This document shows positions 2,659 through 30,656 of a DNA stretch of 32,940 nt, piece by piece; position 1 is the stretch's first letter; the number at the start of each line of letters is the position of its first letter. The position numbers and the translations under genes were made by a program. The stretch comes from Burkholderiales bacterium (GTDB lineage: Bacteria; Pseudomonadota; Gammaproteobacteria; Burkholderiales; Casimicrobiaceae): contig JADLEZ010000539.1 of assembly GCA_020845855.1 (NCBI GenBank), forward strand, positions 1 to 32,940, read 5' to 3'. The notes beneath the pieces were generated by a model. It was not told where the DNA came from. It made no database searches and worked only from the letters and a program-made list of their open reading frames with translations.

Positions 2659-3669
2659 TCACTTTCGAAACGACGCGATCTCGTCGATCAGCGCCGGCAT
2701 CACCTGATGGCAATCACCGACGATGCCGTATCTCGCATACCGGAAAATTGGCGCATCGGGGTCGGTGTTGATCGCGACGATATTTTTTGCATTCGCGCAT
2801 CCGGCCATGTGCTGGCCAGCTCCCGAGATGCCGATGGCGATGTAGAGCTCGGGAGCGATCGTCTTTCCCGAGAGGCCGACCTGACGTGAAGGCGGGCACC
2901 ACCCCAAATCACACGCGACCCGGCTTGCCCCAACCGCCCCGCCCAAAGAGTCCGCAAGCCGCGTGACGAGCTCGAAGCCGAGGGCGTTCTGCATGCCGCC
3001 GCCTCCGGCGACGACGGTGCGCGCGCTTTCGAGCAGTGCGCCATCGTCTGCGCCGTGGCGAGTCTCGCGTATCTTCGTGCGCACGCTTGCCGGGTCGAGG
3101 ACTGAATCGAGCCGCATCACCGCGCCGCTCCGACTTTCCAGTTTCGCGATGGGCTCGAAGCATTTCGACTTAATCGTGAACAACGCCGGCGCGGTCCGCA
3201 GCGAGACGACCTCTTCGGCCTTGCCGCCGTAGCAGGGGCGAGTGAGAAGCAGGTCGTCGCCCTCAAAGGAGACCTTGTTGCAGCCGGTGGCGACAGTCGT
3301 GCCAAGGCGAAATGCCAATCGAGGGGCCAGTTCCGCCCCGAGCGCCGTATGTCCAACTATGATGGCACGCGGCCGGACCCGATCAATCAAGGCGGCGAGA
3401 TCCGGTAGCCATGCATCCGCCTGGTACTCGGCTAGGAACGGCGCGTCGATAACAAACACGGAGTCGGCACCATGGGCAATCAGGTCCTCGCCGAGCCCGC
3501 CGAGGCCGCTGCCCACGAGGACGGCGTGAACCGTCCCACCCACGGAATCGGCCAATGTGCGCGCCAGTCCCAGCGCCTCGTAACTGAGGTTAAGGAAACG
3601 ATTCTCGACGACCTCGCAAATTACGAAGAAACTGGACGAATTCTTCACTGGATTCGCGCGCGCGGACAT
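2659..3669 (-). CDS. etfA: Electron transfer flavoprotein alpha subunit
   Basis: C-terminal FAD motif region GASRVACDLGWCPPSRQVGLSGKTIAPELYIAIGISGAGQHMAGCANAKNIVAINTDPDAPIFRYARYGIVGD is diagnostic of EtfA/FixB. Confidence 0.93.
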   Translation of the reverse strand: MSARANPVKNSSSFFVICEVVENRFLNLSYEALGLARTLADSVGGTVHAVLVGSGLGGLGEDLIAHGADSVFVIDAPFLAEYQADAWLPDLAALIDRVRPRAIIVGHTALGAELAPRLAFRLGTTVATGCNKVSFEGDDLLLTRPCYGGKAEEVVSLRTAPALFTIKSKCFEPIAKLESRSGAVMRLDSVLDPASVRTKIRETRHGADDGALLESARTVVAGGGGMQNALGFELVTRLADSLGGAVGASRVACDLGWCPPSRQVGLSGKTIAPELYIAIGISGAGQHMAGCANAKNIVAINTDPDAPIFRYARYGIVGDCHQVMPALIDEIASFRK

Positions 3670-3683
3670 TGCCGGGCCAGCGC

Positions 3684-4487
3684 CTAGATGAGTCTCGCTG
3701 CGGAAAGTCGTTCGAGGAGGTTTCCCGCCAACTCCTTGGGCGTTTCTCCGGCGATGTATTCGCATTGCTCGTTGTTAACCGGAACGTAGAGGCGCCTGAG
3801 AACGCGGCGTGCGCCGCGTGCACCAACGTCGGACGGATCTAGCCCCAGGTCCTCGACGGTCCACACCGTCACCGGCTTGCGGGCAGCCTTCATTGTCTCG
3901 CGCAGGCTCGCATAACGAACCTTGCCGACCTCGTGCGAAACGGTCACTACCGCGGGCATGGGCGTTTCTACCGTTTCCGAACTGTCGCCGAGCACCCGAT
4001 CGACCACGAGGACTCCGTCGGCAACAGCGATGTCTATCGCGAAAGTCACCGCTGGATACCCGAGGAGTTCGGCGATACCGCAGCCAACGACACCGGCATC
4101 GCTATCGGCAGCTTGGCGGCCTGAGAGGACGAGGTCGACACCGCCAATTTTTTCAATGGCGGATGCCAGCGCACGTGCGGTCGTGTAGCTGTCGCCATCG
4201 TCGAACGCGGGGTCGACGAGCATGAACGCTTCGTCCGCACCGAGTGAAAGCCCGTACTTGATCGTCGCCCGAGCAGTCTCGGTACAAAGAGAGAGGAGCG
4301 CGATCGTAACCTCGCCCCGTGCGTCCCTGATACGGAGCGCCAACTCAACCGCCTGCTCGTCGAACGGACTCATCACCGATCGCGTTCCCGAAAGTGGTGT
4401 CACCTTTCTCGCCTGCTCGTCGACGCAGAAAACGCTGGGCGCGATTTCCGGATCGGGAATCTCCTTCACGCAAGCGACGATCTTCAC
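3684..4487 (-). CDS. etfB: Electron transfer flavoprotein beta subunit
   Basis: MKIVACVKEIPDPE...MSPFDEQAVELALRIRD...LVLSGRQAADSDAGVVGCGIAELLGYPAVTF is an EtfB signature; the gene is adjacent to etfA. Confidence 0.93.
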   Translation of the reverse strand: MKIVACVKEIPDPEIAPSVFCVDEQARKVTPLSGTRSVMSPFDEQAVELALRIRDARGEVTIALLSLCTETARATIKYGLSLGADEAFMLVDPAFDDGDSYTTARALASAIEKIGGVDLVLSGRQAADSDAGVVGCGIAELLGYPAVTFAIDIAVADGVLVVDRVLGDSSETVETPMPAVVTVSHEVGKVRYASLRETMKAARKPVTVWTVEDLGLDPSDVGARGARRVLRRLYVPVNNEQCEYIAGETPKELAGNLLERLSAARLI

Positions 4488-4494
4488 CTGCGGA

Positions 4495-5754
4495 TCATTC
4501 TACGGTGACGTGTACCGGCACAATACCGTCGAAGTGCTTGCGCAAGAAATTCCATTCCGTTTGCGGTTGCTTGCGGCCCTTCTCATCGGTTGCACGCGCC
4601 ATGATCGTGAAGCGCCCCGGCTTGTCCGCCCGCCAGCGGAACGACCAGCGCTTCCACAGCCATCGGTCGGGCGCGTACTCGATGTGCGCCTCCTGCCAGG
4701 ACGCGCCACCATCGAGGCTCACTTCGATTCGCGTTATTTCGCCCTCTCCGCTCCAAGCGAGGCCGCGGACCACCTGTTCTCCCACCGGTAGCGGCGAGTC
4801 GCCGTCTGTCGGTTCGGTAATCATGCTCTTGACGCCAAGCGCGGTCATCATCTTCTTGTTTGGATCCTCCGGCGACTTGCCTGAGACGAAGTAGTGCGTC
4901 TGGTGGTAGCAGTCCGGCATGCGGTCCATAACCTCGATCGTGTGGATCCACTTGACCCACCAGTTGCCTGCCCACCCGGGAACGATCAGACGCAGCGGCG
5001 CGCCGTGCACGTGCTGCAGATATTCTCCGTTGTGGGCCCAGGCAAGGATTGTGTCTGGATGCATCGCCTTTTCGATGGGTAGGCCCTTGTCGTAGTTGAT
5101 GACGCCAGGATCGAACGGCTTGAAATCAGTGCGTGCTGCGGAGCGATAGAGCAGGATCGGGTCCGGACGGCCGCGATCCCACCCTTCGAGCCGCACCGCC
5201 ACCGCACCGGGCCTGATCCCGGACCGTTGCAAGACTTCGGCGAACGGCACACCGGTCCACTCGCCGCCAGTCACCATGCAGGTGCTGGGAATCGACTTCA
5301 GTAGCGTCGCTGCGTCCCCAATCGGGCCTTCACGTTTCTTGCCAGAGAGCCGCCAGTGGATGCCGTCATTCTCCGAGAGCTCGAACGAAGGTTTTTCACC
5401 GATGGCCCCTGTCGCGAGGTAGTCGAAAAAATCTGCGTCGTTGCCGGCACATTCGATTACCGCACGCACCGTGCGACCGGGGAGCCTACGAACGTCTTCT
5501 AGCGAAAATTCCATCGACCGGTCGACTTCGCCGAAGATCGAGAAGCTGTATTCGTCCGGATGCACGGGCTCCGGCATCTGCACCTGGGCATTGACGAAAG
5601 CGGCATCTGTGGGCGTGATCAGCCCCTCGAGATCGAGAAACGGCGATCGCGACCCGACCACGCGCCCCTCTGTATCCTTGTAGAATTCGGAACGGGGTCG
5701 CTTGCGATCGGGCCATCCGAGCACCCAATCCCCCTTGATTTCCTTCTTTGCCAT
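4495..5754 (-). CDS. Sulfite oxidase family molybdopterin-dependent oxidoreductase, no export signal apparent
   Basis: AVIECAGN molybdenum-cysteine region, HGAPLRLIVPGWAGNWWVKWIHTIEV, and a C-terminal Mo-co dimerisation domain (EVSLDGGASWQEA...WKRWSFRWRADKPGRFTIMARATDEKGRKQP). Start taken at MAKKEIKG. Confidence 0.9.
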   Translation of the reverse strand: MAKKEIKGDWVLGWPDRKRPRSEFYKDTEGRVVGSRSPFLDLEGLITPTDAAFVNAQVQMPEPVHPDEYSFSIFGEVDRSMEFSLEDVRRLPGRTVRAVIECAGNDADFFDYLATGAIGEKPSFELSENDGIHWRLSGKKREGPIGDAATLLKSIPSTCMVTGGEWTGVPFAEVLQRSGIRPGAVAVRLEGWDRGRPDPILLYRSAARTDFKPFDPGVINYDKGLPIEKAMHPDTILAWAHNGEYLQHVHGAPLRLIVPGWAGNWWVKWIHTIEVMDRMPDCYHQTHYFVSGKSPEDPNKKMMTALGVKSMITEPTDGDSPLPVGEQVVRGLAWSGEGEITRIEVSLDGGASWQEAHIEYAPDRWLWKRWSFRWRADKPGRFTIMARATDEKGRKQPQTEWNFLRKHFDGIVPVHVTVE

Positions 5755-5823
5755 GCTCTTCACCTCTCCTGGGTCCGGGGACCCGTGGAAATTCACCTAC
5801 CGCGGCAACGGGCGAAGCTGCTG

Positions 5824-6681
5824 TCAGGCGGCAAGATCTTCCAGCGCGCGTCGGACCCAGACCCCAGTCATCTCGCGGCGATATTGGGCCGAGCCCTGGC
5901 CGTTGGAGGACGGATCGGTGCAGGCCGCGGCGGCCGCGGCGACTTCGACGATGAGTTCGGCCGAGAGTTTCCGACCGTGCAGCTGCTCTTCGGCAGCGGT
6001 GGCGCGCAGCGGCACAGGAGCGACGCTGCCCAGGCCGATGCGCGCGCGCGTGCAGGTTTTCGCGCCGTCCAGCGTGATCGATACCGCCACGGTCACAGTC
6101 GCGAACGCCTCCGCCGTCGTGGCTGTGTACTTGATGAAACGGCCTCGAGTGCCGGCGACGGCCGGTGGCACGATGCAGGCGACAAGCAGTTCGTCGCCGT
6201 CGAGCGCGGTGGTCAGCGTGCCGCGGAAGAATTCGTGCAGTGGCACTCGGCGCTCCCGCTGCGGTCCGGCTATGATCACCTCGGCATCCAGCGCCAGCAG
6301 CGCCGGCGCCGGATCAGACGCACTGTCGCCGTGGCTCAAGTTGCCACCCAGCGTCCCCATGTTGCGGATCGCAGGCGAGCCGACGCGCCCGCAGGCTTCG
6401 GCCAACAGCGGCGCCCAATTCCGGATCACCGCCGAGCGTGCGACCTCGCTATGCGTCACCATCGCACCGATCGATAGCTCGCCATTGGCCTCGACGCGGT
6501 GAAGCTCGGGAATCCCGGATAGGCTCACGACGACACTTGGGGCCACCATGCGCTCGCGCAGCAGGATTACTGTGGCGAGGCCTCCCGCCATCAGCATTGC
6601 CTCATCGCCGAACTTCTGGCGCAGCGCGACCGCCTCCCCAACGGATTTCGGTGCGCAATAGTTGAAGCGTGGCAGGCTCAT
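5824..6681 (-). CDS. Molybdenum hydroxylase (xanthine dehydrogenase family), FAD-binding medium subunit
   Basis: MSLPRFNYCAPKSVGEAVAL...LMAGGLATVILL...NMGTLGGNLSHGDSASDPAPALLALDAEV; the start overlaps the end of the 2Fe-2S subunit gene. Confidence 0.93.
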   Translation of the reverse strand: MSLPRFNYCAPKSVGEAVALRQKFGDEAMLMAGGLATVILLRERMVAPSVVVSLSGIPELHRVEANGELSIGAMVTHSEVARSAVIRNWAPLLAEACGRVGSPAIRNMGTLGGNLSHGDSASDPAPALLALDAEVIIAGPQRERRVPLHEFFRGTLTTALDGDELLVACIVPPAVAGTRGRFIKYTATTAEAFATVTVAVSITLDGAKTCTRARIGLGSVAPVPLRATAAEEQLHGRKLSAELIVEVAAAAAACTDPSSNGQGSAQYRREMTGVWVRRALEDLAA

Positions 6682-7178
6682 GCGGTTTCGCGGGCCGGAT
6701 CCACGGGCCGCGCTTCTGGAATTGTGCTCGCCGCCAGCACGGCGCGGACGATGCGCGTGTACCCTGTGCAGCGGCAGAGGTTGCCGATCAGCGCCTCGCG
6801 CACTTCCAGTTCGCTGGGCGCGGGGTTTTCCCTTAGCAGCGCAGTCGCCATCATCAACATGCCCGGCGTGCAATAGCCGCATTGCACGGCACCGGCATTG
6901 ACGAATTCCTGTTGCAGGCGGTCGAGCTTGCCGTCGGTCGCCAAGCCTTCGACCGTCGTCACCTCCCGGCCGTCACAACGCACCGCCAGTGCGAGACAAG
7001 CGCGAATCGGGACGCCGTCGAGCAGAACCGTGCATGAACCGCAGACGCCCTGCCGGCAGCTGTCCTTGGTGCCGACAAGATCGAGATCTTCGCGCAGGAA
7101 TTGATAAAGCGTACGATGGTCCGGCACGTCGCGTTCATGCTGAACACCGTTGACCGTCAGCAACAATCGCTGCGTCAT
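6678..7178 (-). CDS. Molybdenum hydroxylase, [2Fe-2S] small subunit
   Basis: MTQRLLLTVNGVQHERDV... with CRQGVCGSCTVLLDGVPIRAC and CGYCTPGMLM...GNLCRCTGY, i.e. both Fe-S cluster motifs. Confidence 0.95.
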   Translation of the reverse strand: MTQRLLLTVNGVQHERDVPDHRTLYQFLREDLDLVGTKDSCRQGVCGSCTVLLDGVPIRACLALAVRCDGREVTTVEGLATDGKLDRLQQEFVNAGAVQCGYCTPGMLMMATALLRENPAPSELEVREALIGNLCRCTGYTRIVRAVLAASTIPEARPVDPARETA

Positions 7179-7218
7179 TTGTCTGCCTCGTTGCCGTGGG
7201 TTGTGGTGGGAAGGATGC

Positions 7219-9549
7219 TCATTTGACGATCTGCCGTAGCGCCTGCAACACTTTTTCTGGCGTGATCGGCAGACTGGTGATGCGTGCGCCGGTGGCGTTG
7301 AAAATCGCATTGGCAATAGCCGGCGGGCTCGCCGCGAGGGCTGGTTCGGCCAGCCCCTTAGCGCCGTAGGGCCCGTCGGCGTGCGGCGCCTCGACCAGTA
7401 CGGGCACGATCTCCGACACGTCCATCGCCGTCGGAATCTTGTACTCGGCGAACGACGGATTGGTGACGATGCCATCACGTACGAGCATCTCCTCGCACAG
7501 CGCCGCGCCGAGTCCCTGGACCACGCCACCTTCGATCTGGCCTTCTGCGCCATCGGGATTGATAATCGTGCCGGCGTCGTGCACGGCGACCATCCTAAGC
7601 ACCTTGACCTGCCCAGTTTCAACGTCGACCTCGACGTCGGCGACATGGGTGGCGTACATCCAGAACGCGGACATCTTGGCAGTTTGACCGGTTTCCTTAT
7701 CCGGCGGCTGCGTTCCCGGCGGTGCGAAACGGCCTTCGCCCTGCACCGTGCTTCCCCGCGCTCCGAACGTCTTCTCGATGATCTCCTTCGCTGTAATGAG
7801 CCTGTCGCCCCCCGTAGGTACCACGCCGCCATCTCGAAACTCGAGACCTTCGACGGGTACGCCGAGCAGGGGCGAGGCGAAAACGCAGAGCCTGTACGCG
7901 AGATCGTCGGCGGCACGCAGCATCGCGTTGCCCATGTGGAAAACCGACCGGCTGCCGCTCGTCGACTGGTCGTAGGGGGTGTAGTGTGTGTCGGCGGGCC
8001 CGATCCTGATGTGCTCGATCGGAACGCCCAGACGCTCCGCGACGATCTGGCGATATACGGTATAGATCCCTTGCCCGAGCTCGACGCTGCTGCACAAAAG
8101 ATTGATCGTCCCGTCCTGATGCATCTTGACGATGGCGCTCGAATTACTTGGCGTATTCGTGAGCTTATGCATCGTGGCGAGCCCGCGACCGCGCGCGAGC
8201 TTCGGGCTCGCGGGCGCGGGCAGCGGCGTGGCGTTGTCCGACACCGCGAGCGCGCGGCGCAGCGTGTCCTTGACGCCGACGCTGGTGTACAGCAATTCGC
8301 CCGTGCAGGTCGAATCGCCGAGGTCATACAGGTTTCGCATCCGCATTTCCGCCGGGTCGATGCCGAGCCGGTGCGCAATCATGTCCATCTGCGATTCGTG
8401 CGCCCAGGTGGCCTGCGGCACGCCGAATCCCCGGAACGCCCCGCCGATCGGGTTGTTGGTGTAGACGCTGTAGCTGTCGATCCAGACGTGGGGTATCCGG
8501 TAGGGGCCGGTGCCGCTGAACGTGGCGTTGCGTGCCACCTGTGGCCCGGCGTCGGCATACCCCCCGGTGTTGTAGACTGCAGTCATCTTGCGTGCGACAA
8601 GCGTGCCGTCGCGCTTGACGCCGGTTTTGACCGTCAGGTGGGCCGGATGCTTGACGACCGCACCAATGAATTCCTCGTCGCGCATATGCGCGTACTTAAC
8701 CGGCTTGCCGCCGGTGCGCATGGCGAGCGCCACGGTCAGCGGCTCGCTGCGCAGGTACATTTTGGCGCCGAAGGCCCCGCCCACGCCAGTGGCGATCACG
8801 CGCACCATGCTGTATGGCAGACCCAGCGCCTTCGACAGGTCGCGTAGCAAGTTGTACGGCGACTGGCAGCTCGACCAGACCGTCACCGCACCGTCGGTGG
8901 CGACCTGCGCGACGCTTACATGCGCCTCCATTGAGCAATGCTGGACGTACTGCGTGGTGAAGATATCCTCAAAGACGAAGTCGGAATCTCGGAATCCCTG
9001 CTCGATGTCGCCCCGCCTGAGCTTCGTGTGCCCGATGATGTTGGTGCCGGTGCAGCGCGTGAACGTCCCTTCCATCTCGTAGGCGGTGTGATCCTCGTGC
9101 ACTAAGGGGCTGCCGGGCTGCATCGCCTCCAGTGGGTCGAAGACGGCGGGTAGTTCTTCGTACTCGACGTCGATCAGGTCGATCGCCTCGCGCGAGATCT
9201 CTTCGCTGATCGCGGCCAAGGCGGCGACCGGTTCGCCAGCATACCGGACCTTTCCCCGCGCGAGGAACGGCTCGTCGCGAACTGCCGAACCAAAGAGGTA
9301 CGGCAAGTCCGCACCGGTGATTGCCGCGCGCACGCCGGCGAGCGCTCGGGCACGCCTGGTATCGACCGAGACGATCCGTGCGTGCGGATATGGCGAGCGC
9401 AACACCTTGGCGTACAGCATGCCCGGGAGCGCGAAGTCCATGCCGTAGCTCCAGGTGCCTGTGACCTTGTCAATGGCATCACCGCGCAGAGTACGCGTGC
9501 CGACATGACGGTGCTGCACAGCTTTCATCGGGGTGGCCCAATCGTTCAA
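7219..9549 (-). CDS. Molybdenum hydroxylase, molybdopterin-binding large subunit (xanthine dehydrogenase/hydroxybenzoyl-CoA-reductase type)
   Basis: 776 aa with GVGGAFGAKMYLR, NPIGGAFRGFGVPQ, and GAKGLAEPALAASPPAIANAIFNATG carrying the expected catalytic Glu. Confidence 0.93.
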   Translation of the reverse strand: MNDWATPMKAVQHRHVGTRTLRGDAIDKVTGTWSYGMDFALPGMLYAKVLRSPYPHARIVSVDTRRARALAGVRAAITGADLPYLFGSAVRDEPFLARGKVRYAGEPVAALAAISEEISREAIDLIDVEYEELPAVFDPLEAMQPGSPLVHEDHTAYEMEGTFTRCTGTNIIGHTKLRRGDIEQGFRDSDFVFEDIFTTQYVQHCSMEAHVSVAQVATDGAVTVWSSCQSPYNLLRDLSKALGLPYSMVRVIATGVGGAFGAKMYLRSEPLTVALAMRTGGKPVKYAHMRDEEFIGAVVKHPAHLTVKTGVKRDGTLVARKMTAVYNTGGYADAGPQVARNATFSGTGPYRIPHVWIDSYSVYTNNPIGGAFRGFGVPQATWAHESQMDMIAHRLGIDPAEMRMRNLYDLGDSTCTGELLYTSVGVKDTLRRALAVSDNATPLPAPASPKLARGRGLATMHKLTNTPSNSSAIVKMHQDGTINLLCSSVELGQGIYTVYRQIVAERLGVPIEHIRIGPADTHYTPYDQSTSGSRSVFHMGNAMLRAADDLAYRLCVFASPLLGVPVEGLEFRDGGVVPTGGDRLITAKEIIEKTFGARGSTVQGEGRFAPPGTQPPDKETGQTAKMSAFWMYATHVADVEVDVETGQVKVLRMVAVHDAGTIINPDGAEGQIEGGVVQGLGAALCEEMLVRDGIVTNPSFAEYKIPTAMDVSEIVPVLVEAPHADGPYGAKGLAEPALAASPPAIANAIFNATGARITSLPITPEKVLQALRQIVK

Positions 9550-9570
9550 GGTGGCAACTCGGGCGTCGAC

Positions 9571-10389
9571 TCAGCGCAGGATCGCGCCCGGCGAGCGTTG
9601 AACCGCGATTTCACGCTCGGTCGCGACGTGCGGCGTACCCACGGGCTCGGCCAGCAATTCGACCAAGTCTCCTCGGCGCTTGAGCAGTAGCTCCAGATTC
9701 TCGACTACGTTCTCGAAGCGTTCAAACGGAATGCCGAAAATCACTTCCTCCGGCTTGATCTTGACGAACTGGCGGAAGCCGAAACAGCCCAGCGTGTAGT
9801 GGACCTGGCCCGTCATCAGTGGTTTCGACATGACCATCGAGCATGTCGATGGGCCCGTCGTCCCCTCGGTCGCCCCACCCGCCTCGTAATCCGCCGCGCG
9901 GGCGAGAAACAGTCCGGCCTTGGCCGTGCAGAAGACATTGATGACGCCGCCGCCATGGCTCGCGTCATAGGGAAAGCTGTCGAGCGGACCGAACAGTATG
10001 TATCTCACCGTGCCGGAAGGCACAATGTGGTAGTGCGGCAGGTTGCGGCGGAACGCGACCGGCGTACGCACGATCGCACGCCCTTTGTCGGGCCAGTCGC
10101 CGGCCGGCCATTCGCCCGAGTATTGGCCCTCGAACGGAGGGGTAAAACCCAAGTAATGGCTGCCGTTCTTGCAGTCCCGGTTATTCTCGACGTCGGTGTA
10201 GAACACCCGCTTCTCGAAACGGGCGACGTCGAGGAATTGGCAGCCCTTCAGCGTGCCGCGGTCGTATTGCGGAATCCCTTCGGGCTTGTGCATCATGAAC
10301 ATGACGCCCACCGGCACCGATTCCAGGTGAAGCGCACTCACCAGTCGGTCGGACAGCTCTTTGAATGGTGTCTTGGAGTCCTGCGTCAT
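9571..10389 (-). CDS. DUF169 family protein
   Basis: 272-aa ORF with LHLESVPVGVMF, GCQFLDVARF and GGATEGTTGPSTCSMVMSKPLMTGQVHYTLGCFGFR, resembling DUF169 (COG2043) architecture. Confidence 0.7.
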   Translation of the reverse strand: MTQDSKTPFKELSDRLVSALHLESVPVGVMFMMHKPEGIPQYDRGTLKGCQFLDVARFEKRVFYTDVENNRDCKNGSHYLGFTPPFEGQYSGEWPAGDWPDKGRAIVRTPVAFRRNLPHYHIVPSGTVRYILFGPLDSFPYDASHGGGVINVFCTAKAGLFLARAADYEAGGATEGTTGPSTCSMVMSKPLMTGQVHYTLGCFGFRQFVKIKPEEVIFGIPFERFENVVENLELLLKRRGDLVELLAEPVGTPHVATEREIAVQRSPGAILR

Positions 10390-10585: not shown

Positions 10586-11665
10586 TCAACGTGATGCGCC
10601 ATCCTCGCGTGCGAGGGCCTCGCGCAGCGGTTCCGCATCAACCCACTGTTCAAGCGCAAAGTCGTGAATGATGTAGCCGCGCTCGAACAGGAACGACTTC
10701 AGCATTTCGACCGTACCTAGGAGTTCGGGCGTGATCTCCGGGACGAGGCGCTGGGTGAAGCCAGGCTGCAACCAGCGGTCGAGCAGTTCGGAGTCGATTC
10801 CGCAGTCGTGCGCGATAGCGCTACGCACCTGGTCGGGATGTCGCGCCGCCAGACGTCCTGCCCGCAGCAGCCCCTGCAGGTAGCGAACTATCGCGTCGGG
10901 TTCCTCGCGCACCATCCGGGCACCGGCCGTGACGAGGCGCGGCGTCGAATTGTTGACGCGGTCGCCAATATCCGGGGAAGTCGCCACGTTGAACAGCAGG
11001 CGGATCCGTCCTCGCGCCTCGCGCTCCAGCGGTGCGATTTCTGCGCCTTTGCCGAACATCGCATCGATGTGCCCTGCGAGCAGCGCCTGGAGCTGACCCC
11101 GGTAGCGGCAGGCGCGTTCGCCACTCCGGAGTATGCCGTCTCCGGTACTGTCGGCGTCGCCGTCGCCGCCCTCGATGACATCGACAGCGTTGACGTCGGT
11201 CACCCGCATCCCATGCAGACGCAGCGCGGAGTGGAAACCCTTCTCTGCGGCGAATCGCCAGAAATTGAAAACCAGCCCCGACCAGAGCGGAAGACCGACC
11301 CGGCGCCCGGCAAGATCCGCGACACCCAGCGCTGGGTCGTCGTCGCGCACGAAAATCCCCAGCGTCTCCTCCATGAACGTGATGCCTAGGAGCAGGGTGT
11401 GGGCGCCGCCGGCGCGTGCCCACACTGGCGGCGCGCCGCCTCCTTCCCGAAAGCAGCGGTCGATCGAGTGCGTGTAATGCGCCGCGGTGTTCTCGCTGCC
11501 GGCCTCGGCGATGTCGCGCAGTGCGTACCGCGTGCCTGCGTAGAGTTGGTCGAATATTCCATGGTCGAGCGCGATGCCGGTGGCCGTCGGCACTGGGCAG
11601 CGCGTGTAATAGAGCGCTTGCCGTTCTGCTGCCTGATCGTCTGATTCGTCATCCAGGCCGGTCAT
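10586..11665 (-). CDS. DszB-like (2'-hydroxybiphenyl-2-sulfinate desulfinase family) protein
   Basis: N-terminus ALYYTRCPVPTATGIALDHGIF resembles DszB (TYSNCPVPN); LLGITFMEETLGIFVRDDDPALGVADLAGRRVGLP; C-terminus GFTQRLVPEITPELLGTVEMLKSFLFERGYIIHDFALEQW resembles the DszB tail. No signal peptide is apparent. Confidence 0.75.
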   Translation of the reverse strand: MTGLDDESDDQAAERQALYYTRCPVPTATGIALDHGIFDQLYAGTRYALRDIAEAGSENTAAHYTHSIDRCFREGGGAPPVWARAGGAHTLLLGITFMEETLGIFVRDDDPALGVADLAGRRVGLPLWSGLVFNFWRFAAEKGFHSALRLHGMRVTDVNAVDVIEGGDGDADSTGDGILRSGERACRYRGQLQALLAGHIDAMFGKGAEIAPLEREARGRIRLLFNVATSPDIGDRVNNSTPRLVTAGARMVREEPDAIVRYLQGLLRAGRLAARHPDQVRSAIAHDCGIDSELLDRWLQPGFTQRLVPEITPELLGTVEMLKSFLFERGYIIHDFALEQWVDAEPLREALAREDGASR

Positions 11666-12657
11666 TGCCGTCGACTCGGTGCCGTGGAGGTGTCCGCAGG
11701 ATCGCGTCGCACCCTGACGCTCAACGCGTCACCCATTGCGGGGTTCAGGCGGCGCAATTCTGGGAGCACTTCGGTAGCCAGAATGTGACTTGCCACACGA
11801 GCGAGTCGCCCGGGCAGCGCGCCGAATTCGCCGCTGCGCGCGACGAGGGTCAAGCGGCGGAAAAAACGCGGCTCGGGGAATGGCACGACGTTGATTCTCG
11901 ACAGAAAAACGCGTCCCTGCAGCAGGCACAGCGGCGTCGTGCTGGCCCAGCCGATCCCCGCCGCCACCATGGCGATCAGGCTATCGCTCATGTCCACTGA
12001 GACCGGCCGCGTCGGGTGCACGTTGCGGCGGAGCAATTGCTGCTCGATCTGCCCGCCGAGAAAGGATTGCGGGCGGTAGCGGATCATCGGATGATTGCGG
12101 GCGAGCGCCTCGAGGCCCGCGTCGGTCGATTCGATCGCGACGTCCGCCGGCGCGAGCAGCAGGTACGATTCGCTCATCAAGTCGAAACGCACAAGCCCGT
12201 CGACTTCGTCCAGCGCATCGTTACCGATGATCATATCGACCTTGCGCTGCAGGAAGGCCTCGGTGAGGATCGAGGTCAGCTCCGTCCAAACCGTGAGCCC
12301 CACGGCATGGTCGAGCAACGTCCTGGTCAGTGCGGGCCCGGCCACGGCGGCGAAAGATTGGACCAGACCAAGGCGGACCTCGCCGACTTTGGCGTGGCCG
12401 TAATCGCGCACCGTCGCGACCAGTGTTTCCGTATCTCGAATCAACCGGAGGGCGTGCTCGCGCAGAACGACCCCGGATGGGGTCAGCAGCATCGGCCGCG
12501 TTGTCCGGTCGATCAGCACGACGCCCAGATCCTCCTCAAGCTGCCGAATCGCCTGCGAAACGGCCGATTGGCTGCGACCGAGGCGCTGCGCGGCGCGCGT
12601 GAAGTTGCCACAGTCGCCGATCGCAAGAAAGACGCCGAGTGTGCGCAGGTCGATCAT
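11662..12657 (-). CDS. LysR family transcriptional regulator
   Basis: MIDLRTLGVFLAIGDCGNFTRAAQRLGRSQSAVSQAIRQLEEDLGVVLIDRTTRPMLLTPSG is a LysR helix-turn-helix; its end overlaps the next gene by 4 nt. Confidence 0.95.
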   Translation of the reverse strand: MIDLRTLGVFLAIGDCGNFTRAAQRLGRSQSAVSQAIRQLEEDLGVVLIDRTTRPMLLTPSGVVLREHALRLIRDTETLVATVRDYGHAKVGEVRLGLVQSFAAVAGPALTRTLLDHAVGLTVWTELTSILTEAFLQRKVDMIIGNDALDEVDGLVRFDLMSESYLLLAPADVAIESTDAGLEALARNHPMIRYRPQSFLGGQIEQQLLRRNVHPTRPVSVDMSDSLIAMVAAGIGWASTTPLCLLQGRVFLSRINVVPFPEPRFFRRLTLVARSGEFGALPGRLARVASHILATEVLPELRRLNPAMGDALSVRVRRDPADTSTAPSRRQ

Positions 12658-12675: not shown

Positions 12676-13749
12676 CTACGCCTTGCCAATGACCACCCCA
12701 TCGCCGACGTTCCAGCCGATACGCACGCTGCTGCCGATGCGCCCAACCGACTCGCCCGGCCTGCTCTCCATCAGCAGCGTGCTACCGCCGGGCACGCGCA
12801 CGACTTGATGCAGCAGATTGCCGGAGAAGGTCTGGACCTCTATCTTGCCGTCCAGCGTATTCCTGCCAGCGATGCCGTCGCCCTCCGGCCACAGGTGCAA
12901 GCGCTCCGGCCGCACCGCCACCGTCACCGCGGCGCCGATCGCGAGGTTCCCCACACGCGGGCAGAGAACGCGGCCCGCGGGCGTTTCGACCACCGCGTAG
13001 GTGCCCGTATCGCCGGCGAGCGTGCCTTCTAGGAAATTGACCTTGCCGACGAAATCCGCGACGAACCGCGAGTTTGGCGCCTCGTAGATCCGGTTCGGCG
13101 TATCGAGCTGCTCGATGCGCCCACCGTTCATCACGGCGATGCGATCCGACATCGTGATGGCCTCGGTCTGGTCGTGCGTGACGTACACGGTGGTGATCGC
13201 CAGCTGCTGCTGGATCTGCCGCAGCTCGAGCTGCATGGTCTCGCGCATTTTGAGGTCGAGCGCTCCCAGCGGCTCGTCCATTAGCAGCACCTGCGGCGGA
13301 AACGCAATTGCACGGGCCAGCGCGACGCGCTGTTGCTGACCACCGGAGAGTTCCGACGGATAGCGCTGCGCGACTTCCGGCAACCGGATCAGTTCGAGCA
13401 GCTCGGTGACCCGCACCCCGATCCGGTCCCGGGGAACCTTGCGCTCGACCAGGCCGAAGCCGATGTTCTCACCGATCGTCAAATGTGGGAACAGCGCGTA
13501 GTCCTGGAACACCATGCCGATCGAGCGCTTCTGCGGCGGCAGCCGGGTCACGTCGTTGCCGCCAATCAGCAGGCGGCCGGCAGTGGGCTCCACGAAGCCG
13601 GCAATCATCCGCAGCGTCGTCGTCTTACCGCATCCCGAAGGACCGAGCAGGGTAAGGAACTCGCTCGCGCGAACCTCCAGGTTCAACGAGTGAACCGCCA
13701 CGACGTCGCCGAAATGCCTGGAGACGCCTTCGAGTACCACGTTCGACAT
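12676..13749 (-). CDS. ABC transporter ATP-binding protein, PotA/FbpC type
   Basis: Walker A GPSGCGKTTT, signature LSGGQQQRVALARA, Walker B VLLMDEPLGALD, and a TOBE-like C-terminus. Confidence 0.95.
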   Translation of the reverse strand: MSNVVLEGVSRHFGDVVAVHSLNLEVRASEFLTLLGPSGCGKTTTLRMIAGFVEPTAGRLLIGGNDVTRLPPQKRSIGMVFQDYALFPHLTIGENIGFGLVERKVPRDRIGVRVTELLELIRLPEVAQRYPSELSGGQQQRVALARAIAFPPQVLLMDEPLGALDLKMRETMQLELRQIQQQLAITTVYVTHDQTEAITMSDRIAVMNGGRIEQLDTPNRIYEAPNSRFVADFVGKVNFLEGTLAGDTGTYAVVETPAGRVLCPRVGNLAIGAAVTVAVRPERLHLWPEGDGIAGRNTLDGKIEVQTFSGNLLHQVVRVPGGSTLLMESRPGESVGRIGSSVRIGWNVGDGVVIGKA

Positions 13750-13908
13750 GCCCTACCCCTCCGGCCGCACCGGGGTCATGGTCCGCCCGCCCGCCACCCC
13801 GACGACCAACCTAGAGCGGCTTGTTGAAATATCCCCCCGATTCTGTTTACGAGATCGAATGTTAGTGCGCTGAGCAATGCGTCGTATTGAGGCAAGGCGG
13901 TGAGGGAA

Positions 13909-14636
13909 ATGAGTGGAGCGAACGTGACGCAGGAAGGTTTGTTCATCGTAAGGAAGGCCTCGGATTACGTGCCGACGGAGCGTCCGCTGCTGGCGATTCG
14001 AAAGCTTCTCAATAGGGTGCTGTGCGAAATGGGCAGACTGTTCGAGTCGATGTACGAGAAGCATTGCCGATCCTCGGTGGCGCCGGAATGGCTGCTGCGC
14101 AAATTGGTACTGCATACACTGTATCGGATCGGAGCGAACGCCTGCTGTGCGAGCAACTGGGGTACAACATGGTGTTCCGCTGGCTCGTGGGATGGGGAAT
14201 GAAAGACGCGGTTTGGGATCACAGCACTTGCGCCTAGAATTGAGCCTGTCTGATTGATCACGACGCAATCAAGGCGTTGAGCGGACAAGAACTACGACAC
14301 CGAAGACCTTGTCGGCGCCTACTGCGAGTTCAACGCCGCCCCCCATGTCGCGCAGAACACCTACGAGTACGACACCAAGACCAGCAAACGCGAAGCACGA
14401 AAGCGATCGACGGCAGCACGATGCGGCACGACGGGTATCGGGTCAATCAGATGGTGTGCAAGCTGATCGAGACGCTGTTTGGTGATGGCAAGCAGCACGG
14501 CGCAACGATCCACCAGGTCAAGTTGTGCGGCCTGCCAAAGGTCCGCGACGGATTCACGCCGTCGGTGCTGTGGGTCAATTTGCGCCGCTTGCTGAAACTC
14601 TTCATGGTAGCGGCGAACATGGCCGGGAGCGGATAG
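13909..14636 (+). pseudogene. Degenerate IS5-type transposase, frameshifted with an internal deletion
   Basis: MSGANVTQEGLFIVRKASDYVPTERPLLAIRKLLN..LFESMYE, frameshift to SERLLCEQLGYNMVFRWLVGWGMKDAVWDHST, missing middle, then ADKNYDTEDLV..PHVAQN, then IDGSTMRHDGYRVNQMVCKLIETLFGDGK...LLKLFMVAANMAG. Confidence 0.85.
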
Positions 14637-14659
14637 ACGGGAGCGGTGCGTCGACAGTT

Positions 14660-14712
14660 GCGGTTTGCGTGAAAATAGCGTCGCGAAACGCAGTAGCGGA
14701 GGCGCAAACCGC
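14660..14712. repeat. Inverted repeat GCGGTTTGCG...CGCAAACCGC at the 3' end of the IS5 remnant
   Basis: 10-bp perfect arms at 14660-14669 and 14703-14712. A perfect 16-bp palindrome AAGCCTTGCAAGGCTT follows at 14716-14731. Confidence 0.7.
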
Positions 14713-14802
14713 GAAAAGCCTTGCAAGGCTTCCTGTTTCATCTAGAAAATCTCGTCGCAATCCAATGCTGGCGTTCAAGTTGTTGATAACTCCAACGAAC
14801 TG

Positions 14803-15882
14803 CTAGCGCGTGACCGACCTGTTCCACTGGTCGTTCCACTTGCTGAGATCGATCTTGGCCGGATCGAGCTTCGCCATTTTGTTGATCCTGGCCTGGTCCA
14901 GCACAACCAGATCCTTAATCACTGGTGTGGTTGCTAACACTTTGCGCGCCTCCGGGTTGACCGGGACCACGCCGACGTTGATTGCGAACGCCTCCTGCGC
15001 TGCGACTCCCAAATAGGTGTTGATAAAGAACTCCGCGGCGGCCTGGTTCTTGGTGCCCTTGACTACGCCGACGAAGCCTTCTTTGATGATTCCCTGGTAC
15101 TTGCCCATGTTCGCCGGCACCGTCCCCACATTCACACCCGCGCGCGCCGTGCGGATTGCCCAGCCAGAATGCGCGACGGCGACCCAGACGTCACCAGACT
15201 TAAACTGCGTGATCACTTCGCCGCCAGACTTCCAGAATCGTAGGTCGGGTATCTCATTCATGAGCTTCAGTCCGGGCTCAATATTCTGCTCGTCACCGCC
15301 GGCGGACAAAGCGAACGCGCCTACCGCTTCAATGCCCCCACCCGAGGAGATGTCGGGGATCATCACGCGTCCGGCGAGCTTGGGGTTGCGCAGATCGGCC
15401 AGACTCTGCGGCGGCGCCACACCGATTTCCTTGAGTTTGTCCTTGTTGTAGATAATGACTTCCTGGGTATTCCACGTCGCGACCATGTAGTCGTTATACT
15501 GATCTTTCTGCAGGTACTTGACGTTGGGGATCTTGGCGAGATCTAGCTTCGCGAGAAGTTGGCGCCCCATTATCTCTGGAACCATAGTGCCGAGAAAATC
15601 CATCAGGTCGAAGGGTGGCTCGCCGCGCGACGCTATCAGCTTGGCAAAGTTGTCCTGCGGGCTGCCGACGACGAATTCCACTTTGCCGCCTCGCTTTTCG
15701 AACTCCTTGGCCACGAAGTCTCGTAACGTGGTGCGCGTCGCAGCACCCCAAGTACCCATCCGCAGCGTCACGCCGTCGAAGCGCGGCTCGTCGGCGCTGG
15801 CGGCAGTACCTACCAGCAGTAAAGGTACCAGCATACCGATACTGAGTCGCGCCAGCACTCTCCACAACGATTGCTTATTCAT
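14803..15882 (-). CDS. ABC transporter extracellular substrate-binding protein, PotD/spermidine-putrescine-like
   Basis: Signal peptide MNKQSLWRVLARLSIGMLVPLLLVGTAASADEPRF; internal LMDFLGTMVPEIMGRQLLAKLDLAKIPNVKYL..., WAIRTARAG; RBS GGAGGAAGTC upstream. Confidence 0.88.
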   Translation of the reverse strand: MNKQSLWRVLARLSIGMLVPLLLVGTAASADEPRFDGVTLRMGTWGAATRTTLRDFVAKEFEKRGGKVEFVVGSPQDNFAKLIASRGEPPFDLMDFLGTMVPEIMGRQLLAKLDLAKIPNVKYLQKDQYNDYMVATWNTQEVIIYNKDKLKEIGVAPPQSLADLRNPKLAGRVMIPDISSGGGIEAVGAFALSAGGDEQNIEPGLKLMNEIPDLRFWKSGGEVITQFKSGDVWVAVAHSGWAIRTARAGVNVGTVPANMGKYQGIIKEGFVGVVKGTKNQAAAEFFINTYLGVAAQEAFAINVGVVPVNPEARKVLATTPVIKDLVVLDQARINKMAKLDPAKIDLSKWNDQWNRSVTR

Positions 15883-15929
15883 GACTTCCTCCATAGTTAT
15901 CGCGCCGACAAGTGTTCCTGGTCTAAGAC

Positions 15930-17393
15930 TCACTCAAACGATGCCGGCACATCGCCGAGTCCCATCCACACGCTCTTCAACTGCAGATACTCGCGTATTC
16001 CTTCGAGACCGTTCTCGCGGCCATAACCGCTCTGCTTGTAGCCACCTGCCGGCGACTGCGGGGCGACGCCGCGGTAGTTGTTCACATACACGGTACCCGC
16101 CCGCAGGGCACCGGCGAACCGGAACGCGCGCCGCAGGTCGGTGGTCCAGACGCCGGCCGCGAGCCCCAGTGCCGAATCGTTCGCCAACGCGAGAGCCCCG
16201 TCGTCGTTCGCAAACGGTATCACGGCAAGCACTGGGCCGAACACCTCCTCGCGGGCGATGCGCATCTCCGGCGTGACGCCGGTAAAGATCGTCGGCTCGA
16301 CGAACCAGCCGCCGGCGGGCAACTCGACCGCGGCGCCGCCGGCGACGCAGGTCGCGCCCTCGGCCTTTGCGATGTCGATATAGCGGAGAATCCTGCGGAA
16401 CTGCGGCTCGTTGGCGATCGGTGCGACCTGTGTCGCCGGATCGGCTGGGTCGCCGAAGCGCAATCCGCGGATCGCCGCACAGAGCAGGCGCAGGAACGCG
16501 TCGTGCACCGACGCCTCGATGAGCAGCCGCGAACCCGCGACACAGCTTTGCCCGTTGGACGCGAAGATACCGCTCGCGACACCGTTGACCGCTTGCCGCA
16601 GGTCGGCATCGGCGAAGACCAATTGTGGCGACTTGCCGCCGAGTTCCAGCGTCACCCGCTTCACCTGCAGCGCGGCCTGCGCCGCGATCGCGCGCCCGAC
16701 TTCCACCGACCCGGTGAAGCTGACCCGCGCCACGTCGGGCGCATCGACCAGCGGCCGGCCGACCGCCTCGCCGGACCCGGTCACGACATTGACGACCCCC
16801 GGGGGGAGGCCGGAACGCGCGACGAGATGCATGAGTTCCAGCGTCGACGCCGACGCGTGTTCGGAGGGCTTGACGACCAGCGCGTTGCCGGCCGCGAGCG
16901 CCGGCGCGAGCTTCCAGACGAGCAGCATCAGCGGCGAGTTCCACGCGGTGATCGCCGCGACCACACCGTAGGGCTCCCACTGCGTATAGTTGAAGGTATC
17001 GGCGCGGTCGATCGGGATCACCGCGCCCTCGATCTTGTCAGCAAGACCGGCGTAGTAGTGCAGGTACGCCGGTAGGCTGCGCAGCTGCGCCTGCGCGTCA
17101 GGCAGCCGCTTGCCGTTGTCGCGCGTCTCGATTGCGGCGAGCGCGTCGGCGCTCTCGCCCAGGAGGTCGCCGAGGTTCCGCAGCAGCGCGCCCCGTTCGG
17201 TCGGCCGCATCCGCGACCAGCGGCCAGAGTCGAAGGCGCGTCGCGCCGCCGCGACCGCCAGCGCGACGTCCGCCTGCCCGCACTCGGGGATCAACGCCCA
17301 GGGCCGCGCGGTGTACGGATCGAACGACTCGAACCATCGGCCTCCCACCGGGTCGCACCACTGCCCGTCGATGAAGATCCGGTATTGCTTCAC
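15930..17393 (-). CDS. Aldehyde dehydrogenase (NAD(P)+-dependent)
   Basis: 487 aa with VTLELGGKSPQLVFADADL, NGQSCVAGSRLL, FTGSVEVGRAIA, and EEVFGPVLAVIPF. Confidence 0.95.
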   Translation of the reverse strand: MKQYRIFIDGQWCDPVGGRWFESFDPYTARPWALIPECGQADVALAVAAARRAFDSGRWSRMRPTERGALLRNLGDLLGESADALAAIETRDNGKRLPDAQAQLRSLPAYLHYYAGLADKIEGAVIPIDRADTFNYTQWEPYGVVAAITAWNSPLMLLVWKLAPALAAGNALVVKPSEHASASTLELMHLVARSGLPPGVVNVVTGSGEAVGRPLVDAPDVARVSFTGSVEVGRAIAAQAALQVKRVTLELGGKSPQLVFADADLRQAVNGVASGIFASNGQSCVAGSRLLIEASVHDAFLRLLCAAIRGLRFGDPADPATQVAPIANEPQFRRILRYIDIAKAEGATCVAGGAAVELPAGGWFVEPTIFTGVTPEMRIAREEVFGPVLAVIPFANDDGALALANDSALGLAAGVWTTDLRRAFRFAGALRAGTVYVNNYRGVAPQSPAGGYKQSGYGRENGLEGIREYLQLKSVWMGLGDVPASFE

Positions 17394-18001
17394 TGGGCGC
17401 CCGCGTCACTGTCTTGAGGTAGGGCATCGGCGCTCGCGCCAAGCAAAGCGGCACGGAATTCATCGCGTGCCTTCGCGCTGTGCAGGCGATCGTAGTCCTG
17501 CGGGTAGCGCGTGGTCCCCGGCGTCACCCGCAGGTCGACGAAGATGGGACCGTCCTGCGCGAGTATGTCGTCGAGGCAAAGGTCGAGGTTAGCCAGCATA
17601 TCGAACGTGTGGCAATGCGCATAGCCGGCGACGCGCGCGATCGAGGCGAAATCGAGCGTGCCCCTGGCCGGCAGCGGCATGCCGCCGTTCGCTTCGTAGG
17701 TTCCGTTTTGGAAGACGAAGTGCACCAGGTTGCGCGGCGCGGCGGCGCCGATCGTGACCAGCGACCCGAGATTCATTAGCAGACTCCCGTCGCCGTCGAA
17801 GACGAGCACGCGCCGGTCCGGACAGCCGAGGGCGAGGCCCAGCGCGTGCGACGACGCCTGTCCCATCGCCCCGACCGCGAGGTAGTTGAGCGCGTCGGGC
17901 CGCAGCGCCAACCATTCGAAGGCACTAGTGTAAACGGGCACGACGATTTCGCCGGCGTAGTGCGCGGCGATGCAGCGCAGGGCTTCGTCACGTATCAGCA
18001 T
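17390..18001 (-). CDS. TPP-dependent decarboxylase beta/C-terminal subunit, sulfopyruvate decarboxylase (ComE)-like
   Basis: GAMGQASSHALGLALGCPDRRVLVFDGDGSLLMNLGSLVTIG contains the GDG TPP-binding motif; stand-alone pyrimidine/PP half-protein next to an alpha-like partner. Confidence 0.8.
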   Translation of the reverse strand: MLIRDEALRCIAAHYAGEIVVPVYTSAFEWLALRPDALNYLAVGAMGQASSHALGLALGCPDRRVLVFDGDGSLLMNLGSLVTIGAAAPRNLVHFVFQNGTYEANGGMPLPARGTLDFASIARVAGYAHCHTFDMLANLDLCLDDILAQDGPIFVDLRVTPGTTRYPQDYDRLHSAKARDEFRAALLGASADALPQDSDAGAQ

Positions 18002-18004
18002 CGC

Positions 18005-18535
18005 TTACACCGGTGAGCGCCCAAGCAAAAAAACCACAGGAGAGCGTGTCTCGTACGCGCGCTCGATACCTGCCTCGAGGCGCGCCAAGTCGCAATCAGT
18101 GGACAACAGGCAATGCGCAACCCCCATCACGTCGAGCATCGGTTCGATGATCCGCACGCCGTACTTCGCAGAATCGCGCGGACTCGCTTCTGGCTCCTTG
18201 CCGAGTAGCCCGACCATCATGCACACGGGATTGCCGAATTCGACGCCGATCGCGCGCAACGCGTTGAGAGAGTCGAGCAGTCCCGTGTTCTGCATCAGCA
18301 GTAGCGCGCGCCTGCCGCAGAACGACAGCGCCGCGCAGATGGACACGCCCTCGTCCTCCTTGCAGACGCGGATCAGCGCGATGCCCGGTTCCTCGGCCAG
18401 CGGTCGCAGCAACCCTTCACTGGTCACGATGTCCGGAACCGAAATCACGTGCGACACGCCGCAACGCTTGAGCGTATCGATGATCGTGCGCCCTCGCAGC
18501 GCGTCGGCCGCGACAGCCGTCGACGCCGTCAGCAT
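18005..18535 (-). CDS. TPP-dependent decarboxylase alpha/N-terminal subunit, sulfopyruvate decarboxylase (ComD)-like
   Basis: IIDTLKRCGVSHVISVPDIVTSEGLL...IRVCKEDEGVSICAALSFCGRRALLLMQNTGLLDSLNALRAIGVEF; Glu in the KEDEG motif; 3-nt gap to the beta-like gene. Confidence 0.8.
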   Translation of the reverse strand: MLTASTAVAADALRGRTIIDTLKRCGVSHVISVPDIVTSEGLLRPLAEEPGIALIRVCKEDEGVSICAALSFCGRRALLLMQNTGLLDSLNALRAIGVEFGNPVCMMVGLLGKEPEASPRDSAKYGVRIIEPMLDVMGVAHCLLSTDCDLARLEAGIERAYETRSPVVFLLGRSPV

Positions 18536-18658
18536 CGCGCCGCCCCTGCGACCTGCGCGAGCGCCCGCGCGGCGCGCGCCCGGCCCGATGCGCCAGCGCT
18601 CGGGTCGGCTACACGGGTGACCGCACGGCATTGAAGGCGCGACATGCGGCGTGTTTCC

Positions 18659-19567
18659 CTATTTCGCCCGGAGCAGGCTGTCGAGACCGACGATGCGCTG
18701 GGCCACTATCAGCACGATCAGGGCGAACAACGCGGCCAGCGACGCCGAAGCGAGGCTAGTCGGATTGAAGTCCTGTTCCATCGTGTGAAACAGCTCAACC
18801 GGGTACGTCGTCAGGCCCGGCGCCGACAGGAAGATCGCGACCGGGACGTCGACGAACGAGGCGATGAACGCGTATAGGCCGCCGGAGAAGATTCCCGGCA
18901 GGATGACCGGTAGCGTAACGCGTCGCAGCGTTCGCCATTGCGTCGCTCCGAGTATGAATGCCGCCTCCTCGAGCCGGACGTTGAACCGCAGCAGCACGGC
19001 GCCCACGCTGCCGATGACGAACGGCGTGGCAAGGAAGACGTGGCCGACAAACAACCCGAACAGCGTGCCATCAATGTACACACCGGAAAGATCGCCGATC
19101 GTGTAATAGAGCTGCAGGAACGCGATCCCGAGCACCACGTGCGGAATCTGCAGCGGGGCCCGCAGCAGGATGCCGACCAGCGCCTTGCCGCGGAAGCGGC
19201 CGCGCACCAGGCCGAGTGCCGCCGGCACGCCGATGATGCACGCGGTCAGCGCGACGCAAAGTCCCAGCGCGAAGCTGAACCCCAACGCGTGCAGCTGCTC
19301 GCTCGAGATCCCGCGATACCACTTCAGCGTCAGTCGCTCCGGCGGAAACTGCACGTACGACATCACGACAAGGTCGTTGACCGGCGCGCTGAACGATCCG
19401 CCGACGACGACGACCAGCGGCGCGAGCAGGAACGAGAATACGGCGGCAATGTAGGCGACGGCGAGCGCCTTGCGCGGCGAGAACCGGCGCCACCGCGGCG
19501 CGGCAGGCGTGCGTGCTCCGCCGGGCAGGCTGCCCGGACCGGGCGCGCTCGCGGGGCCGGCGTTCAT
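18659..19567 (-). CDS. ABC transporter permease, PotC type
   Basis: Multi-helix protein with the EAA-like segment LEEAAFILGATQWRTLRRVTLPVILPGIFSG. Confidence 0.92.
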   Translation of the reverse strand: MNAGPASAPGPGSLPGGARTPAAPRWRRFSPRKALAVAYIAAVFSFLLAPLVVVVGGSFSAPVNDLVVMSYVQFPPERLTLKWYRGISSEQLHALGFSFALGLCVALTACIIGVPAALGLVRGRFRGKALVGILLRAPLQIPHVVLGIAFLQLYYTIGDLSGVYIDGTLFGLFVGHVFLATPFVIGSVGAVLLRFNVRLEEAAFILGATQWRTLRRVTLPVILPGIFSGGLYAFIASFVDVPVAIFLSAPGLTTYPVELFHTMEQDFNPTSLASASLAALFALIVLIVAQRIVGLDSLLRAK

Positions 19568-20418
19568 GACAGCACCAGGCGGGACGCGCGAAAGCGCCTC
19601 AACACGCCGATTGACAGGAGGTTGAGCGCCACCACGAACACGAGCAGCAACGCGGCGAGCGCGCCGGCGATTCCGTATTTGACGTCGAGCAGCATTGTGC
19701 GCTGGATCAGCACTGGCAGCGTGATCACGCGCCCGCCGCCCAGAAGCGCCGCCGACGTGAACGCGCCCATGCAGAGGTTGAACACCGTCAGGAAGCCGAT
19801 GATGATGCCGGGCAGGCTGAGCGGCAAGATGATTCGCGTGAACACGCGGAGCCGGCCCGCGCCATGGACCGTGGCCGCCTCGTCGAGCGAGACGGGAATG
19901 GTGCGGACGACGGCGAACATCAGCATCACGGCGAAGCCGAAGGTCGAGTAGATCAGCCCGACCACGACGCCGCCGACGCTGCCGACCAGCGAGAATGGCC
20001 GGTCGATCAGCCCCAGCGCCAGCAGCGCGCTATTCACCGGGCCGTCGGCGCGGAAGATGATGATGAGCCCGAACACCTGGATGACGATGGTGATGAACGA
20101 CGTCAGCACGACGATGCTGAGGAGCACGGTGGTCCAGCGCGAACGCAGCCGCGAAAGGATCTGCGCGACCGGAAACCCGACGACGATGCAGCAGGCCGCG
20201 ACGATCAGCGAGATGTAGCAGGTCAGCCACAGCGTGCGCAGGTAGTAGCCATCGGTCAGAATGCGCCGGTAGTTGGTGAGGTCGATCGTCGTCGACAGCT
20301 TACCGAAGCCCAGGTCCGCGTACAGACTTGCCCTGAGGAAGACGAACAGCGACCCCACCAGCAGCACGACACTGATGACGCAGGGGATGATCACCAAAGC
20401 TCCCCAGCGCTTCCTCAT
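19564..20418 (-). CDS. ABC transporter permease, PotB type
   Basis: Start at MRKRWGALVIIPCVISVVLLV; EAA-like segment LDEAATVHGAGRLRVFTRIILPLSLPGIIIG; overlaps the next permease gene by 4 nt. Confidence 0.92.
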   Translation of the reverse strand: MRKRWGALVIIPCVISVVLLVGSLFVFLRASLYADLGFGKLSTTIDLTNYRRILTDGYYLRTLWLTCYISLIVAACCIVVGFPVAQILSRLRSRWTTVLLSIVVLTSFITIVIQVFGLIIIFRADGPVNSALLALGLIDRPFSLVGSVGGVVVGLIYSTFGFAVMLMFAVVRTIPVSLDEAATVHGAGRLRVFTRIILPLSLPGIIIGFLTVFNLCMGAFTSAALLGGGRVITLPVLIQRTMLLDVKYGIAGALAALLLVFVVALNLLSIGVLRRFRASRLVLS

Positions 20419-20449
20419 GCGGTATCCTCCGCCGGCGCAGCGCTCGCGA

Positions 20450-26600: not shown

Positions 26601-26604
26601 CGAT

Positions 26605-26793
26605 CTACGCGCACGCCGCGGGGTGAGGCCGCTGCACCGCCTCCGAGGGGCGCAGACGCGAGCAGCGTGAAGCCGACCCTCGAAGGGTACGTCCGCGAGC
26701 GCCGCTTGCGGCCGACTCCATGACGCAACGTGCTATCCACCCATTCGTCGAGGCCGCGCAGCGGGCGTCTTGGGACGGTTTGGCGGCGCTCAT
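26605..26793 (-). CDS. Possible 62-aa small ORF between soxD and soxA
   Basis: MSAAKPSQDARCAASTNGWIARCVMESAASG... starts with an ATGA overlap on the soxD stop and ends 4 nt before the soxA start codon. No recognised family. Confidence 0.3.
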   Translation of the reverse strand: MSAAKPSQDARCAASTNGWIARCVMESAASGARGRTLRGSASRCSRLRPSEAVQRPHPAACA

Positions 26794-27068: not shown

Positions 27069-27078
27069 CGGCCCCCCC

Positions 27079-29201: not shown

Positions 29202-29221
29202 GTCGTAGTCTCCGTTGAAAA

Positions 29222-30601: not shown

Positions 30602-30656
30602 TGGAGCTCCCCCTTTTCGTCGACTGACCGCCCATGCTCGCGCACGCCGATGAGAC

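Follow-up and report, generated by a model that had tools for sequence, protein, structure and literature searches.

The 2'-hydroxybiphenyl-2-sulfinate desulfinase DszB of Rhodococcus IGTS8 (PDB 2DE2 and 2DE3) catalyzes a step of biodesulfurization that is slow and product-inhibited; to our knowledge, few desulfinases of the DszB fold have been characterized. The active sites of two other enzymes on this fold, THI5 (HMP synthase) and 4,5-dihydroxyphthalate decarboxylase, probably differ from that of the protein described below. The fold is also that of the periplasmic binding proteins SsuA and TauA, from which the automatic annotation of DszB-like proteins originates. C27, H60, and R70 of DszB have been implicated in desulfination, with R70 lying within an RXGG motif common to DszB homologs; S25 pairs with H60, G73 forms a bond to the sulfinate in the transition state, and calculations favor a mechanism in which C27 donates a proton to the carbon and SO2 is lost (PMC6100217). 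A DszB homolog is also known from the chromosome of Rhodococcus IGTS8, where the "SsuA/DszB" protein peg4802 is encoded in an ssu-like cluster and is more abundant during growth on dibenzothiophene (DBT) (PMC8557817).

The gene considered here lies in a 32,940-nucleotide stretch of DNA from a Burkholderiales bacterium of the Casimicrobiaceae (the window), and its product, judged by sequence, resembles DszB far beyond chance. We think that it is probably a sulfite-releasing, cysteine-dependent lyase of the DszB type that acts on a non-DBT sulfinate. Like peg4802, the window gene encodes a DszB homolog outside a dszABC operon, a likeness drawn from the published description of peg4802; unlike the window gene, peg4802 sits in an Ssu cluster. 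Since such a homolog had already been seen outside dsz operons (PMC8557817), what is new is not a kind of enzyme but a distinct, apparently uncharacterized clade with a changed pocket.

In a phmmer search of PDB structures, DszB was the sole strong match to the window protein (2DE2; E=6.8e-24, residues 10-353; identity approximately 30%), and in the same single-sequence search the structure of the DszB C27S mutant gave E=1.7e-22 and SsuA E=0.055. A family profile of 33 relatives matched DszB with E=3.5e-48 (167 bits) and SsuA with 30 bits. An AlphaFold2 model built from 21 sequences, all from genome loci, had a mean pLDDT of 89.8, and its best Foldseek match was DszB 2DE3 (E=1.3e-23); three DszB chains headed the list (E from 1e-23 to 2e-22), followed by SsuA (2.5e-16), with THI5 and dihydroxyphthalate decarboxylase ranking lower than SsuA. 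The initial annotation had proposed a DszB homolog with a DszB-like C-terminus and had called for an alignment with DszB. That proposal is borne out by sequence, profile, and fold, and the C-terminal likeness by the extent of the DszB match to residue 353 and by W341, which is invariant in 33 relatives. The family libraries returned only NMT1 (Pfam) and a sub-threshold SsuA match (NCBIfam SsuA_fam), which at 51 bits falls well short of the curated family's cut-off of 163.5. These matches explain why annotated relatives carry the name "ABC transporter substrate-binding protein," the automatic label that had been anticipated for this gene.

The same NMT1 and SsuA-family matches, together with the ABC transporter ATPase and LysR-family regulator genes directly upstream (Table 1), might point to a non-catalytic binding protein, cytosolic or exported, that holds a sulfonate-like ligand for the nearby transporter or as a LysR sensor. 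We regard this as highly improbable. The N-terminus of the 359-residue protein is hydrophilic (MTGLDDESDDQAAERQALYYTRC), and Cys23 is already near the N-terminus with no lipobox ahead of it; the protein is thus judged, from a reading of its N-terminus, to be cytosolic and free of a signal peptide, as had been claimed, whereas SsuA and TauA are exported. The transporter encoded in the window is of the PotA/PhnT2 type and has its own SBP_bac_8 protein (14803-15933), and the window gene has no cognate Ssu/Tau permease-ATPase. SsuA was weaker than DszB in every search, by sequence and by fold. Moreover, ligand binding alone does not account for conservation of the Cys, the His, and the RXGG motif. 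In a multiple alignment, three genuine binding proteins (16-21% identity) had neither Cys nor His at the DszB catalytic positions. The stop codon of the LysR gene and the start codon of the DszB-like gene share four bases (ATGA), which suggests translational coupling, and this overlap and the short spacing between the ATPase and LysR genes indicate that all three genes probably form one transcription unit. The DszB-like gene is therefore probably expressed together with the regulator and the ATPase.

Table 1. Coordinates of the DszB-like gene, its active-site codons, and the two genes upstream of it
Feature	Position	Strand	Basis or remark
DszB-like desulfinase homolog, 359 aa, ATG start	10586..11665	(-)	phmmer, AF2 model, Foldseek
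Gly76 codon (DszB Gly73)	11438..11440	(-)	G in 35/35
Arg73 codon (DszB Arg70; RXGG motif, here REGG)	11447..11449	(-)	R in 35/35
His63 codon (DszB His60)	11477..11479	(-)	alignment; H in 34/35
Cys23 codon (DszB Cys27, catalytic Cys)	11597..11599	(-)	alignment; C in 34/35
Thr21 codon (DszB Ser25, hydroxyl partner of the His dyad)	11603..11605	(-)	T in 34/35
LysR-family regulator	11662..12657	(-)	Pfam HTH_1 and LysR_substrate
PotA/PhnT2-like ABC transporter ATPase	12676..13749	(-)	18 bp upstream of the LysR gene

The active-site equivalences in Table 1 were taken from the phmmer alignment and a multiple alignment, with conservation counted across 35 sampled family members that span Pseudomonadota and Streptomyces relatives. 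As the initial annotation had read by eye, the Cys of the CPVP motif and a His and an Arg corresponding to those of DszB are kept, the latter two in AHYTH and FREGG, respectively. The RXGG motif appears as R73-E-G75-G76, in which the Arg and both Gly residues are invariant among the 35. A best match to binding proteins and lack of the triad had been named as the outcome that would contradict the proposal; instead DszB came out on top, and hardly any family member departs from the triad. The exceptions are a relative whose catalytic Cys is replaced by Ser (L037:13007) and one that has Asp for the His (L028:7486). The Ser-for-Cys copy (L037:13007-14038) is clustered with two intact DszB-like copies and is possibly an inactive or binding paralog.

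By homology with DszB, the window protein would be a cytosolic, cofactor-free C-S lyase that takes the sulfinate group off an organic sulfinate as sulfite. Its two-lobed binding-protein fold would shut over the substrate, and Arg73 and the REGG loop would grip the sulfinate. Cys23 would then give its proton to the sulfinate-bearing carbon and SO2 would depart as bisulfite, while the His63-Thr21 pair may steady the developing thiolate. We infer from these correspondences that the protein is catalytic and that sulfite is the leaving group.

Conservation of the reaction centre does not extend to the substrate pocket. The segment of DszB that contains L152 and W155, which we take to be part of its substrate pocket, is absent from all 35 family members in the alignment, with the exact edges of the gap being uncertain because of the low identity to DszB. 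The position of DszB Y63 is His in 33 of the 35 (H66 in the window protein), and that of F71 is Glu, Gln, or His across the family and Glu here. The window protein is therefore like DszB in its fold, its full-length alignment, the residues equivalent to C27, H60, R70, and G73, the hydroxyl at S25, and the lack of a signal peptide, but it differs in these pocket positions, in its modest overall identity, and in the clade to which it belongs, and its gene adjoins neither dszA nor dszC. With five active-site positions kept and the pocket insertion lost, the reaction centre is common to both proteins and the pocket is not, which suggests that the window protein probably removes sulfite from a sulfur compound other than the fuel molecule. 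We infer that its substrate is not 2'-hydroxybiphenyl-2-sulfinate, and it is probably a smaller or more polar sulfinate. The suggestion of a different substrate had been made in the initial annotation, and it agrees with the lost insertion, the Tyr-to-His change, and the lack of a DszA ortholog among the genes found in the genome.

The window protein is not a DszB ortholog but a member of a sister clade. In a maximum-likelihood tree, whose root is uncertain because the outgroup branches are long, DszB and the DszB of pMyong1 formed one clade (100/99), and all other sequences, the window protein included, formed a second (88/85), which is marked by the motif YTRCPVPT. Within the latter, the window protein grouped with five metagenome relatives from Alpha- and Gammaproteobacteria (approximately 48-52% identity; 100/98), and these six then joined three loci that belong to a single other family of the same class as the window (99/95). 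The gene is patchily distributed, with matches (E<=1e-30) in 4 of 200 genomes of the order and 3 of 369 genomes of the class besides the window's own, often in several copies per genome; the window's genome has a paralog of it elsewhere (34%). A plasmid search with DszB largely agreed in genera, and in many individual records, with one made with the window protein. In the literature covered, which did not extend to subscription journals, no characterized member of the YTRCPVPT clade and no activity data were found.

No DszA- or DszC-type gene is present within the window, in line with the initial annotation, nor is there an obvious sulfinate-producing monooxygenase gene. The window's genome (96.5% complete) has no DszA match at 1e-10, and its DszC matches are ACAD proteins with only 28% identity; it has seven PF00296 and 26 PF08028 matches. 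The nearest relatives, L001-L005 (approximately 50%), share no gene surroundings with the window, nor is any of the partner genes that were surveyed close to them. Elsewhere in the family, both Sinorhizobium sp. B11 and genome G655 have the order SBP-LLM-DszB-like-ACAD, of which the LLM-DszB-like-ACAD portion reproduces the dszABC arrangement of the bona fide dsz operon on pMyong1. On S. meliloti pSymA, the DszB-like gene occurs with genes for an ACAD and for NtaA/DmoA-type and FAD monooxygenases. SsuD-type monooxygenase genes lie near the DszB-like gene in Sphingobium, as does an ACAD gene in Paracoccus, Agrobacterium, and Ensifer; LLM-type genes alternate with DszB-like copies in G916, and a flavin reductase gene is immediately downstream in three genomes of the window's subclade (L029, L030, and L031). 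Because relatives adjoin genes for DszA-like or DszC-like flavin monooxygenases or flavin reductases, cleavage of a sulfinate with release of sulfite is the most likely function. A separate arrangement was seen at L034:1657-4963, where a gene for a DHDPS-family aldolase stands between two DszB-like genes.

The main rival to this function is that the protein is a cysteine-dependent enzyme of the NMT1/binding-protein fold with other chemistry, such as protodecarboxylation or desulfonation. The DszB reaction, with a proton passing from Cys to carbon and SO2 leaving, is chemically near protodecarboxylation; 4,5-dihydroxyphthalate decarboxylase and THI5 have the same fold and appeared in both the profile and the fold searches; the pocket is unlike that of DszB; and the surroundings of the window gene include catabolic genes unrelated to sulfur, among them those for a split TPP enzyme, an aldehyde dehydrogenase, and a Mo hydroxylase. 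We nevertheless consider such chemistry unlikely, since the full DszB constellation is present, the contexts of the wider family are sulfur-related, and the similarity to the two enzymes is weak, their matches being much poorer than that of DszB (profile E of approximately 1e-3 to 1e-2; fold E of 5e-13 and 3e-8).

Desulfination remains the reading that we prefer, and a broader form of it can be offered tentatively for the whole clade. Proteins with the YTRCPVPT motif may constitute a large group of C-S (or C-C) lyases that go by the name of substrate-binding proteins and act on natural, not fossil-fuel, sulfinates, with the window subclade, which is free of DszA/DszC partners, using a sulfinate supplied by another enzyme of carbon metabolism. 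Such a broad sister clade, alike in its reaction centre though not in its pocket, would supply new enzymes, mend a systematic mis-annotation, and hint at bacterial use of organosulfur compounds not yet charted, whether naturally occurring sulfinates or sulfones.

Downstream of the DszB-like gene, on the same strand (2659-5796), are genes for a Mo protein of the sulfite oxidase family, which shows no obvious export signal, and for EtfB and EtfA. One could extend the desulfinase proposal to a dissimilatory pathway in which the DszB-like enzyme supplies sulfite to the SoxC/SorA-like Mo protein (4495-5796) for oxidation, with EtfBA as the electron acceptor. In its favor, the Mo protein has matches among sulfite dehydrogenases, its gene lies 5-7 kb from the DszB-like gene, and on S. 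meliloti pSymA the gene for a Mo oxidoreductase with 31% identity to the window's Mo protein is approximately 4 kb from a DszB-like gene. We find the extension quite improbable, as 196 bp separate the DszB-like gene from the next gene, which begins the downstream block, and the Mo protein-EtfB-EtfA module is conserved in seven further genomes of the order, in none of them beside a DszB-like gene. In the sample of the order, the window's own genome is the only one that has both a DszB-like gene and the Mo protein; among the others, DszB-like genes were found in G068, G072, G116, and G119 and the Mo protein in G005, G006, G055, G100, G140, G144, and G169. Given that the module occurs without DszB-like genes and the genome sets are disjoint, a strong pathway link with the sulfite-dehydrogenase-like gene was rejected. 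Conservation of Mo-EtfB(-EtfA) without a DszB-like gene nearby marks it as a separate module that gives no clue to the substrate. The module, possibly an ETF-coupled Mo sulfite or sulfur oxidase, is found in L068-L074, where the Mo protein is sometimes duplicated, and in L068, L070, and L072 it is followed by apparent acyl-CoA carboxylase genes, as read by eye.

The remainder of the window includes further catabolic genes. A three-subunit Mo hydroxylase of the xanthine dehydrogenase family is encoded at 5824-10389 (-) and is preceded by a DUF169 protein; the latter was considered as a partner of the DszB-like protein and set aside, having no relative in 274 genomes of the class (E<=1e-25, the window's own aside) or on plasmids. 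At 14803-21111 (-), an operon encodes a TPP decarboxylase split into N and C subunits, together with a PotBC/PhnS2-like importer and an aldehyde dehydrogenase. The split enzyme resembles sulfopyruvate and phosphonopyruvate decarboxylases but scores below every curated cut-off, and its reading as the sulfopyruvate decarboxylase ComDE was rejected. A second catabolic block at 21615-32497 (-) encodes an MmgE/PrpD protein, sarcosine oxidase alpha and gamma subunits, a DAO oxidase, two CN-hydrolases, a dihydropyrimidinase-like amidohydrolase, and an IclR regulator. Finally, a frameshifted remnant of an IS5-type transposase gene (13750-14802, +; DUF772 at 14016-14234, E=3e-7) lies between the binding-protein and ATPase genes of the transporter.
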